Shown piece by piece: positions 22,277 to 62,728 of a stretch of 64,000 bases of DNA. Made by a program: the position numbers and the translations under genes. Within the stretch, counting starts at the first letter, position 1, and each line of letters starts with the position of its first letter. Origin of the DNA: Desulfosediminicola ganghwensis (GTDB taxonomy: Bacteria > Desulfobacterota > Desulfobulbia > Desulfobulbales > Desulfocapsaceae); contig NZ_CP050699.1 in assembly GCF_005116675.2 (NCBI RefSeq), positions 682,001 through 746,000 on the forward strand, read 5' to 3'. The notes under the pieces were generated by a model. The model worked only from the letters and a program-made list of their open reading frames with translations. It did no database searches and was not told the origin of the DNA.

Positions 22277-22315
22277 AAAAAAGGCCATACCCCTCAAAGG
22301 AGAGGTACGGCCTTT
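22277..22315 (-). terminator. Rho-independent terminator of the YedE gene
   Basis: On the minus strand a GGCC-based stem with two G-U wobbles is followed by a run of U. The wobbles pair only in the minus-strand RNA, which supports leftward use. Confidence 0.8.
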
Positions 22316-22341
22316 CAAACTGGTTACAGATGATCTTTGTA

Positions 22342-23586
22342 TCACATAGGTACGATTAATTTATTCGTATCCTCGTTCCAGGTAACCACCACATACCAGA
22401 TCATCATTGCGCCAACGATGAGGGTCAGCGTTCCACCATAACCAAAGACGTCCGGGAGATAGACATAAGAGCCTAAAACACCATCACTCTCAAAATCATT
22501 ATCCTTGATCCAGGCTGTCATCATGGAAGTCGACAGAGCAAAGAACGGCACCACCATCATCAGTTTTACCTGCCCCTCGCCAACCCTCCATAAAGTGCCT
22601 GAACCGCAACCACCGGCAAACATGGCACCAAGACCGAAAACAAAACCGCCTACAACACTTCCCCAACCGAAAGTACCGCGTACATAGTGAGCCGGGTTTA
22701 AAACAGCTTCACCTTCTGCTCGCATTGGTACTCCGTACTTAAGAACAGCAGCACCAATTGCCACAATAACGATGGAGAGCATTACGGACTTGGCCATGGT
22801 GCAGTCACCGGTCATATGTGGTTCACGGAACCCCTGTACCATACACCAGCGACCACGCTGCATCGCATACCCCAAAGCTGCAGATATCACAAGAATACCA
22901 CTCAGTGATGCCACATAATCACTGTCTTCATTCCCTGCGTACGCATACGCTCCCGCAATAATCGCGACAATAGCTACCACTGCCAGAACAGGGCTTGCTG
23001 GACCAGGGATGGAGAATGTTTTTGAACCTGTTGAACCCCAGGTGATATGTTCCATTTCAAGATAAAGCAGCTTAAGGCCCAGAATTACCCCAAACACCAG
23101 TCCGAGCATCATGGAGAATCCATTGGCAGAAAGATTGCCTATGGCATTATAGAAACCACCAACATTACAACCACCTGCCAGCGATGCCCCAACACCCATC
23201 AAAATACCGGCGATTACGGCTTTAACCATCTCCCGGTAAGGGGGAATTCTCAGTGCAAAATCTTTTCCCAGACAGGCGGAAATAAATGCACCAGCAATAA
23301 ATCCCAACCCTATTACCGAACCTGAGTTAATAAAAATAGATCTCGGTACCTCCTCGTACAGGGCCAGCAACCCAGAATCAGAGCCAAAGACTGAAGCGAC
23401 TCCATACATCATCCAGTCCCCCCAACTCCTTAGCGCACCCACAGCTCCCCACGGTCTCCACCACGCCATAATCATAACAGAAAGAAAGCCAACCACCACG
23501 CCTGTTACGGTTGGGTTCCACTCTGTCTGGCAAAGCGTTTTATACAATTCCTTCACCTTAGATGCTAATACGGATTCTGCACTCAT
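22342..23586 (-). CDS. yedE: YeeE/YedE-family sulfur-compound transporter
   Basis: A 414-residue polytopic inner-membrane protein of the YeeE/YedE family, which includes the thiosulfate importer TsuA. Two repeated halves each contain the signature GGC: LAGGCNVGGFYNA around Cys140 and FAGGCGSGTLWR around Cys327. A Cys248 in QRGRWCMVQGF and Cys262 complete the set thought to pass the sulfur compound. It is transcribed away from a TusA gene across a 321-base promoter region, the common YedE-TusA arrangement. The substrate could be thiosulfate, another sulfur species or a selenium compound; the sequence does not decide. Confidence 0.87.
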   Translation of the reverse strand: MSAESVLASKVKELYKTLCQTEWNPTVTGVVVGFLSVMIMAWWRPWGAVGALRSWGDWMMYGVASVFGSDSGLLALYEEVPRSIFINSGSVIGLGFIAGAFISACLGKDFALRIPPYREMVKAVIAGILMGVGASLAGGCNVGGFYNAIGNLSANGFSMMLGLVFGVILGLKLLYLEMEHITWGSTGSKTFSIPGPASPVLAVVAIVAIIAGAYAYAGNEDSDYVASLSGILVISAALGYAMQRGRWCMVQGFREPHMTGDCTMAKSVMLSIVIVAIGAAVLKYGVPMRAEGEAVLNPAHYVRGTFGWGSVVGGFVFGLGAMFAGGCGSGTLWRVGEGQVKLMMVVPFFALSTSMMTAWIKDNDFESDGVLGSYVYLPDVFGYGGTLTLIVGAMMIWYVVVTWNEDTNKLIVPM

Positions 23587-23907
23587 TAATTCCCTCCAGC
23601 TTTTACGTCATATAGGTGTACAAATTCGCCAAAATAAATACTGCTTTACAACTACCTATTTTTTTTGTCAAGCACCACAAAAATGAATAGTCATTCACTC
23701 GATATTTAACCTCCACAGCGTCGTACAAAATTGGTCTTTTTCTTAGTTATTACAAGGTTCTTGACCCGTTTTTTTCGTTCTTGACAGATTCTGTGCTCTA
23801 CAGTATAGGTCATCTATGTGATCCGCATACTGTGTAGTAGCGGTTTGTTGATTCCTAACATACTACTATGTAGTACAAACAACGCTTAACATTGTCAGGA
23901 GGAAGAC
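23587..23907. promoter_or_regulatory. Divergent promoter region between yedE and tusA
   Basis: An AT-rich region between divergent genes. It includes the tusA promoter and a dyad TACTAC-TAT-GTAGTA at 23861-23875. The sequence GTAGTACAAAC at 23870-23880 recurs inverted upstream of the next gene, at 24238-24248. Confidence 0.6.
23781..23809 (+). promoter_or_regulatory. Sigma-70-type promoter for the tusA cluster
   Basis: TTGACA at 23781-23786, a 17-base spacer and TATAGG at 23804-23809. This predicts a leader of about 90 bases that contains the TACTAC/GTAGTA dyad. Confidence 0.7.
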
Positions 23908-24165
23908 ATGAGTGATTTCAAAAAAGTTGATGATGGTGTTACCCCTAATGCCAAACTGGATGCCAAGGGATTAAGCTGCCCTATGCCCCTTCTTCGTACT
24001 AAAAAAGAGATAGGTAAACTCGCCAGCGGCGAAATTCTTCAGATAGATGGTACCGATCCAGGCTCCAGAAATGATCTGCCCGGTTGGTGTGAACGCGCAG
24101 GACATGAGTACCTGGGTGAGAAGGAAGAAACCGGCTATATCTCCTTCTTTATCAAGAAAGGTTGA
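23908..24165 (+). CDS. tusA: TusA-family sulfurtransferase
   Basis: An 85-residue TusA/SirA/YedF-family protein. The sulfur-carrying Cys24 is in the signature CPMPLLRTKKEI, and the C-terminal half contains IDGTDPGSRNDLPGWCERAGHEYLG. Such proteins carry persulfide sulfur between partners. Its pairing with YedE and DsrE-like genes indicates cytoplasmic sulfur relay rather than the tRNA-thiolation role of E. coli TusA. AGGAGG precedes the ATG. Confidence 0.9.
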   Translation: MSDFKKVDDGVTPNAKLDAKGLSCPMPLLRTKKEIGKLASGEILQIDGTDPGSRNDLPGWCERAGHEYLGEKEETGYISFFIKKG

Positions 24166-24237
24166 TCCTGATCAAAACCGGATTCTCTGATTTTTTTACA
24201 GGGAGTCAACCAGCTTTATAAATCCGCGTCAGGTACT

Positions 24238-24248
24238 GTTTGTACTAC
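24238..24248. promoter_or_regulatory. GTTTGTACTAC motif, inverted copy of the tusA leader motif
   Basis: The 11-base sequence is the reverse complement of 23870-23880 and sits 40 bases before the DsrE-like gene. It is a possible shared operator, or a site for coordinated control of the two parts of the cluster. Confidence 0.4.
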
Positions 24249-24289
24249 AGTTCAACTGTTCGCAGATTTTTTTTTAACAGGAGTACATC

Positions 24290-24604
24290 ATGGCAAAAAG
24301 CTTAGGTATATTTGTCACTACAGAAGACTCAATGGATCATGTCATGGGTATAACCAGGGCAGCAAAAAGCAAAGGATCCTCTGTAAAGATCTTCTTTACC
24401 TGGAAAGCGACACACCTCTCCAAACACCCTGATTTCAAAGAGCTGTGTGAAATAGCAGACGATGTATCCATCTGCGTCGACAGTTACGCGAAGCAAGGAT
24501 ATGATATTAATGACATTCCAGCCGGACTTGATGCCAAGAAAATGGCTACTCAGGCTCAACACGGAATTATCATCGAAGATTACGACTGTTATCTCAGTCT
24601 GTAG
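24290..24604 (+). CDS. DsrE-family sulfur relay protein
   Basis: A 104-residue DsrE/TusD-like protein with the alternating beta-alpha pattern of the family. The likely sulfur-carrying Cys62 is in VSICVDSYAKQGY, the position of the active Cys in DsrE; Cys53 is nearby. It follows tusA by 124 bases and precedes a second DsrE-like gene by 11. The transfer would be of persulfide sulfur among TusA and these subunits. A strong AACAGGAG precedes the ATG. Confidence 0.8.
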   Translation: MAKSLGIFVTTEDSMDHVMGITRAAKSKGSSVKIFFTWKATHLSKHPDFKELCEIADDVSICVDSYAKQGYDINDIPAGLDAKKMATQAQHGIIIEDYDCYLSL

Positions 24605-24615
24605 GAGGTGTAGGG

Positions 24616-24918
24616 ATGGAGTATAACAAAGTATGTTTGATGTTCAGGCATGAGGATTATGCCCTCGACGGCATTCGCTCTGCGCTGGGTCTGGCAGTAG
24701 AAAATATGTACGCATATGGTGTAGTAATGGATAAAGAGCTGCCTGCTTTTGACGATTACACCAAAGAGACCATCGAGATGCTGCGTGACATGGAAGGTGA
24801 TATTCTCACAACAGTTCCAGCCAACATCGAAAAGAGTGATCTTACCGGAATCACACTTGAAGAACTTGGTGAAAAGCTTCGCGAGATGACCCATATCATT
24901 CCTTACGGAATTAAATAG
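24616..24918 (+). CDS. DsrE/DsrF-like small protein
   Basis: A 100-residue protein with the same overall size and strand/helix alternation as DsrE-family subunits. It has only one cysteine (Cys7), in the first strand, and none at the DsrE active-site position, as in the non-catalytic DsrF/TusC type. It starts 11 bases after the DsrE-like gene with GGAGGTG just upstream, so the two are co-translated and probably form a complex. Assignment to DsrF is inference from context and length. Confidence 0.65.
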   Translation: MEYNKVCLMFRHEDYALDGIRSALGLAVENMYAYGVVMDKELPAFDDYTKETIEMLRDMEGDILTTVPANIEKSDLTGITLEELGEKLREMTHIIPYGIK

Positions 24919-24937
24919 AATCCCAAAAGGTACGTAC

Positions 24938-25111
24938 ATGAAGATTCTCAATGTATACAGGTCAGAACCTGATGAGACCGTCAAAAAGCTGGTGGAGATT
25001 GTAACCAGAGACAGAGAGGATGAATCCTTCGACCTCTATGCGGACTCTCCTGATTACGACGCACTTGTAGATAAAATCTTTTCAGCAGATCAGACAATCT
25101 GCTGGTGGTAA
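24938..25111 (+). CDS. 57-aa protein, possible DsrH/TusB-like third subunit
   Basis: A short gene that starts 19 bases after the previous one. It begins MKILNVYRSEPDETV and ends DQTICWW. The C-terminal Cys-Trp resembles the end of DsrH/TusB proteins, but it is little more than half their length, so the fold may be reduced. Weak ribosome site AAAAGG upstream. Its position, third after two DsrE-like genes and before a terminator, mirrors tusD-tusC-tusB order. The function is inferred from position only. Confidence 0.55.
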   Translation: MKILNVYRSEPDETVKKLVEIVTRDREDESFDLYADSPDYDALVDKIFSADQTICWW

Positions 25112-25179
25112 CATAACAGCACTCAGAACGTAATTCCTCACCACACATCTATATATTTTCGATAGTTGCTGTTTTAACT

Positions 25180-25220
25180 CCGGATCATTTTTTTTTATAA
25201 GATGATCCGGAAATTTTTTT
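25180..25220 (+). terminator. Terminator of the tusA/dsrE-like cluster
   Basis: CCGGATCAT, a T-rich loop and ATGATCCGG, followed by AAATTTTTTT. It is 68 bases after the 57-residue gene. Confidence 0.88.
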
Positions 25221-62248: not shown

Positions 62249-62728
62249 TCAGATTTGATCGGCTGAATTCTGCTGCATCACAGGCATGTTTTGCTGAAGG
62301 TTCGGGTTACCTTTGCCGTGGCCACCGTGTCCTTTGCCATGGCCTTTACCGTGACCTTTCATCCCTGAACCATGGCGTTTGCCATGCCCGACATATTGCT
62401 CAACGCCGGCCTCTTTGGCTTTATTGGTCATGCTGGTATGCAGATCGAAAATCTCACCGCTAAGCTGGCCCACAGCGGCAGGATCGGGGTTGGTCCCTTT
62501 CATCATGGCTCTTTTCTCTGCCTGCTTTACCACCATTTGTTTCCGCAGATCCTGAGTATCCTTACGAAACTGATCGATCTTTGCCAAAGTTTCCTGGTCG
62601 AGTTGTTGATATTGAGAATATCTGCAACCGGCCTGTTGATTTGCTCCCCCCATACCCTGGTAGGCGAATGCTGCGGTTGAGATAGTAAGTCCTGAGATGA
62701 GTGTTGCGGCGATGATTGCTTTCTTCAT
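62249..62728 (-). CDS. ZraP/CpxP-like periplasmic metal-responsive protein
   Basis: A 159-residue exported protein. A signal peptide ends at AAFA. The helical middle (QLDQETLAKIDQFRKDTQDLRKQM) is typical of the ZraP/Spy/CpxP group; the end is a His/Gly run with HGKRHGSGMKGHGKGHGKGHGGHGKG that should bind zinc, copper or nickel. It has two cysteines or fewer. A periplasmic metal buffer or chaperone is the likeliest role. No sensor kinase is next to it. Confidence 0.72.
   Translation of the reverse strand: MKKAIIAATLISGLTISTAAFAYQGMGGANQQAGCRYSQYQQLDQETLAKIDQFRKDTQDLRKQMVVKQAEKRAMMKGTNPDPAAVGQLSGEIFDLHTSMTNKAKEAGVEQYVGHGKRHGSGMKGHGKGHGKGHGGHGKGNPNLQQNMPVMQQNSADQI

Follow-up and report, generated by a model that had tools for sequence, protein, structure and literature searches.

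What sulfur-handling system is encoded by a set of YedE-, TusA- and DsrE-like genes that ends in a gene for only 57 amino acids, and what is that very short last protein? The question is raised by positions 22342 to 25111 of a 64,000-nucleotide stretch of the Desulfosediminicola ganghwensis genome (contig NZ_CP050699.1; the whole stretch that was analysed is called the window below). The original prediction had described a five-gene cluster with a 57-residue protein as its last product, and all five open reading frames (ORFs) were confirmed, with yedE on the minus strand and tusA and the three small genes running divergently on the plus strand:

22342..23586, minus strand: yedE/yeeE-like gene for a sulfur-compound importer of 414 amino acids (Pfam PF04143 Sulf_transp, E-value 6.8e-47, in two stretches)
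23908..24165, plus strand: tusA, sulfur carrier of 85 amino acids with the active Cys24 in a CPMP motif (Pfam PF01206 TusA, E-value 7.4e-24)
24290..24604, plus strand: dsrE type II, 104 amino acids, predicted persulfide-carrying subunit with Cys62 (profile alignment to TusD; Pfam DsrE in orthologues)
24616..24918, plus strand: dsrF type II, 100 amino acids, predicted partner subunit with DsrE fold (AlphaFold2 model and structural neighbours)
24938..25111, plus strand: dsrH type II, 57 amino acids, predicted reduced TusB/DsrH subunit ending in Cys-Trp-Trp (conservation, model, and collinearity with TusB/DsrH)

The gaps between the small genes were 11 bp (dsrE-dsrF) and 19 bp (dsrF-dsrH). Five such genes make up what Umezawa and colleagues reportedly called the YTD cluster (2020, as given in PMC9751629 and PMC13293266), and the genes of the window are syntenic in the same way (yedE, tusA, dsrE, dsrF, dsrH type II). 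The locus is very probably such a YTD cluster, which in this Desulfobulbales sulfate reducer would encode the sulfurtransferase DsrEFH type II with a relay from TusA through Cys62 of DsrE to DsrC, and with the 57-amino-acid protein as the DsrH subunit. This assignment is based on the gene order, strands and sizes, which match those of the published cluster (PMC13293266, PMC13047784, PMC9751629), and on the co-occurrence of dsrE and dsrH, the invariant Cys62 placed on TusD Cys78, the fold of DsrF, the collinearity of DsrH, and the presence of DsrC, DsrA and AprA in the genome.

The published clusters of cable bacteria, Desulfolithobacter, Desulfurivibrio and others consist of the same five genes, the three small ones next to tusA, and they likewise have a single invariant DsrE cysteine, a DsrH-like subunit without Cys20, and DsrAB and DsrC in the genome. 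In Desulfolithobacter dissulfuricans, all five proteins were more abundant in thiosulfate disproportionation (PMC9751629). The three small proteins of cable bacteria were modelled in March 2026 as a DsrEFH-like double heterotrimer (PMC13047784); in May 2026 the three were named DsrEFH type II, and the cable-bacterium complex was purified in a ratio of 1:1:1 (PMC13293266). No essential difference from the published cluster was found here, and the locus is another member, from an order where the cluster is common. The proposal of a reduced DsrH in the original prediction is thus right and already published, and the system is the known YTD cluster.

The conservation of the 57-amino-acid gene across cluster-bearing genomes was then determined. 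The ORF is not a chance one, because it was encoded without internal stop codons in 118 of 144 genomes from the genus, family and order of the window's organism, usually with 60-91% identity, and in 54 of the 297 genomes sampled across the phylum. DsrE was detected in 117 of the same 144 related genomes, and the two proteins occurred together in 116 of the 119 genomes having either one; in the three genomes with only one of them (G058, G079 and G112), the gene sits near a contig end. Of 80 named loci collected by way of DsrE only, 77 carried the 57-amino-acid gene downstream of dsrF, and the remaining three contigs end before that point, so that it was found in every evaluable cluster (77/77) on a sufficiently long contig. 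All four genes tusA, dsrE, dsrF and dsrH were present in each of the 29 loci fetched from the phylum. In the 30 nearest loci by a ranking on the 57-amino-acid gene itself, identity to the window was 81-91% for the 57-amino-acid protein, 68-81% for DsrE and 62-92% for DsrF, the short protein exceeding DsrE and usually also DsrF. No match for DsrE type II was found in the plasmid collection.

Three relatives (G007, G044 and G071) each carry two copies of DsrE and two of DsrH, spread over different contigs. Where a contig's DsrE is the one nearer to that of the window (69-72%), its DsrH is the more distant one (about 50%); where its DsrE has 47% identity, its DsrH is the nearer one (65-67%). This pattern hints at mixing of subunits or of subtypes.

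The 57-amino-acid protein had no sequence-family match in Pfam or NCBIfam, and it was compared with TusB/DsrH by profile alignment. The two ends matched separately and in order: residues 39-56 correspond to the last 18 residues of TusB/DsrH (DYDALVDKIFSADQTICW / DYTDFVRLTVKHPSQMAW, P 0.0013), and residues 3-11 to the first nine of TusB, a match that is weak alone (P 0.2). The end-to-end alignment to E. coli TusB and Allochromatium vinosum DsrH omits about 38 internal residues; with these long internal TusB gaps, none of 600 column shuffles reached its score (z 4.2), which was also above all circular shifts. This collinearity is good but not final, since no more than five sequences made up the type I profile and the secondary-structure pattern is broken up by column shuffling. 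DsrH type II as a C-terminal truncation of TusB was rejected, because an aligner free to produce this arrangement did not improve on the score of the internally gapped end-to-end path. Where A. vinosum DsrH has Cys20, the 57-amino-acid protein has an invariant Leu18, in agreement with the published remark that Cys20 is absent from the DsrH-like proteins of this cluster (PMC13047784). Together with the conservation and the 1:1:1 co-purification of the cable-bacterium orthologue (PMC13293266), these alignments support the 57-amino-acid protein as a genuine third subunit and as a reduced DsrH/TusB, as the original prediction had suspected; it appears to lack about 38 internal residues of TusB/DsrH. 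Neither outcome that the prediction had named as refuting it, a gene that is not conserved or a protein unlike TusB, was observed.

The C-terminal Cys-Trp-Trp, which had been singled out in that prediction, was conserved in part. All 105 complete copies end in Trp-Trp, but this is preceded by Cys in 79 copies and by Ser in the other 26, so the motif is [Cys/Ser]-Trp-Trp and this Cys cannot be a general sulfur carrier; it was also ruled out as a catalytic residue on the same count. We tentatively propose, as one possible history, that DsrH type II is a true TusB/DsrH homologue that lost about 38 internal residues and the redox cysteine and kept both ends, that selection acts only on the trimer interface closed by the invariant Trp-Trp, and that the protein is a scaffold and not a sulfur carrier.

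The prediction of two DsrE-like proteins was borne out, although the 100-amino-acid one is recognisable by its fold only. For the 104-amino-acid protein, 12 of 15 orthologues matched Pfam DsrE weakly, and its alignment with E. coli TusD and the DsrE of a classical set spanned 97 columns (P 6.5e-5) and placed Cys62 on TusD Cys78. Cys62 was invariant in all 110 DsrE orthologues; Cys53 and Cys100 were not. Judged from these alignments, the sulfur-carrying residue is Cys62, the equivalent of TusD Cys78 and presumably also of E. aureum Cys67. DsrF had no sequence-family match, and the ten closest structural neighbours of its monomer model (predicted local distance difference test score, pLDDT, 89) were all chains with the DsrE/F fold or related to it (Z 10.4-7.7; unrelated rows from 6.9), including 2hy5_C of A. 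vinosum DsrEFH and 2d1p_E of TusBCD. A sequence search of solved structures with the DsrE, DsrF and DsrH profiles returned nothing significant.

Compared with DsrEFH type I (A. vinosum, PDB 2HY5) and TusBCD (E. coli, PDB 2D1P), the complex would have three subunits with the same roles, sharing the equivalence of the DsrE and TusD cysteines, and in the 57-amino-acid DsrH the N-terminal strand motif is retained, as is the C-terminal DY..(L/F)V...W block. In contrast to these systems, the sequences are barely alignable, DsrH has 57 instead of 95-102 amino acids, and Leu18 stands in place of the type I Cys20. Classical DsrH (PF04077) had no match in this genome and exceeded the cut-off in 1 of 297 Desulfobacterota. 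The TsuA-TsuB (YeeE-YeeD) thiosulfate uptake system likewise places a Sulf_transp-family importer beside a TusA-like protein; unlike in that system, the genes here are divergent, the operon runs on into DsrEFH, and the scores lie far below the TsuA and TsuB/YeeD cut-offs. The yedE product scored about 103 bits against both the TsuA and the YedE/FdhT NCBIfam models, far under both cut-offs.

The importer, the carrier and the genes of the trimer stood as predicted for a sulfur uptake and relay path, but the path is not complete within the cluster, since DsrC and DsrAB are also needed and are encoded elsewhere in the genome (5.65 Mb, single contig). This genome encodes DsrAB (DsrA 578 bits), AprA and DsrC, so that the co-occurrence of the cluster with dsrAB and dsrC holds here. 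Four DsrC-family proteins were found (G000:C1, at 169533, 637772, 897618 and 1950337); the one at 1950337 has both C-terminal cysteines (GACKMAGLPKPTGCV), that at 169533 keeps the last Cys only, and the other two lack both. In the relay, YedE would import a sulfur compound, and TusA, as is expected for its family, would load sulfane sulfur on Cys24 of the CPMP motif and hand it to Cys62 of DsrE. The DsrEFH trimer would then pass the sulfur to DsrC, and the DsrC-bound sulfur might be oxidised by a reverse-running DsrAB together with AprAB and Sat. The 57-amino-acid DsrH would most likely have a purely structural role, its C-terminal Trp-Trp packing in the trimer. The two transfer steps have counterparts in vitro, where Cys67 of E. 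aureum DsrE exchanges sulfur with TusA and DsrEFH passes sulfur one way to DsrC (PMC13293266).

Several points weigh against the assignment as a DsrEFH type II relay. The evidence for sulfur transfer comes from cable-bacterium orthologues and not from the proteins of this organism, and the structure models made here cover monomers only. The monomer model of the 57-amino-acid protein (beta-alpha-beta-alpha-beta, pLDDT 93) had no significant structural match to TusB/DsrH and resembled generic alpha/beta proteins only; the best Foldseek E-value was 0.26 and the best VIA-align Z was 5.5, to unrelated proteins, the protein being too small and generic for a search by fold. These missing sequence-family and fold matches would suit a small, unrelated passenger of the operon, a reading that is very improbable because the gene constantly accompanies dsrE and dsrF, the protein is collinear with TusB/DsrH, and the cable-bacterium orthologue co-purifies as an equal partner (PMC13293266).

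The function of the cluster is also disputed, as it has been regarded as a marker either for the disproportionation of sulfur (PMC9751629, PMC13047784) or for its oxidation (PMC13293266). If it served disproportionation, YedE and TusA would import thiosulfate and cleave it, and its sulfite or sulfide groups would be accepted by the DsrEFH-like trimer. Such a role was proposed for cable bacteria too (PMC13047784), and the thiosulfate transporter TsuA is a distant relative of YedE; however, the genes are present in only 25 of the 63 disproportionators in culture, and recombinant cable-bacterium TusA, DsrEFH and DsrC were not persulfidated by thiosulfate in vitro (PMC13293266), which leaves this role rather unlikely. 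The protein-to-protein relay may be the same under oxidation and disproportionation. A relay that feeds transfer RNA thiolation, as E. coli TusBCD does, and not energy metabolism would agree with the alignment of DsrE with TusD and of DsrH with TusB, but it is hardly to be expected of a cluster that is absent from nearly complete relatives, includes an importer, and is reportedly accompanied by reductive dsrAB in 73.9% of the genomes (PMC13293266). The YTD cluster with a DsrEFH type II relay is the preferred reading.

Signals for two transcription units were found around the genes:

23781..23809, plus strand: candidate sigma-70 promoter TTGACA-17-TATAGG of the tusA-dsrEFH operon (read from the sequence; kept in two relatives)
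25179..25211, plus strand: intrinsic-terminator-like hairpin closing the tusA-dsrEFH unit (terminator scan)
22279..22316, minus strand: intrinsic-terminator-like hairpin 3' of yedE (terminator scan)

Two relatives, Desulfopila aestuarii (L043) and Desulfopila sp. IMCC35006 (L057), have these promoter elements at the same spacing in front of tusA, and the candidate is plausible for this reason; the rule of the promoter scan leaves it out, since position 6 of the -10 element is G. Both hairpins carry T runs, and each closes one of the two units. Between the candidate promoter and tusA, a 12-nt direct repeat occurs as TACTGTGTAGTA (23828-23839) and, at a distance of 36 bp, as TACTATGTAGTA (23864-23875), a possible, unproven regulator site; a similar TACTACCCAGTAGTA is present in L043 and not in L057, and the repeat is not convincingly conserved in relatives. 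No Rfam match to an RNA element was found around the cluster. Elsewhere in the window (62249-62728, minus strand), a probably secreted His/Gly-rich protein of 159 amino acids (GHGKGHGKGHGGHGKG) resembles a metal-binding periplasmic protein.

DsrEFH type II was counted in 985 genomes of 20 phyla with a threshold of 80 bits per model (PMC13293266). Intact tusA-dsrEFH sets of other families of the phylum (L155-L157) contained DsrH copies of only 70-75 bits against the profile built here, which differs from the model of that survey, and further copies scored lower. Because intact clusters hold copies below 80 bits, we suspect that this cut-off is strict for a 57-residue protein and that the count may be too low.

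In summary, a Desulfopila-like genome is added to the carriers of the cluster. The small additions made here are the end-to-end match of DsrH type II with TusB/DsrH, read as an internal deletion, and the invariant Trp-Trp with its Cys/Ser position. In close relatives, few parts of the cluster are as well conserved as the 57-amino-acid subunit, which is thus a good search handle for the complex. The cluster bears on the question of whether sulfate reducers with reductive-type DsrAB also oxidise or disproportionate sulfur.
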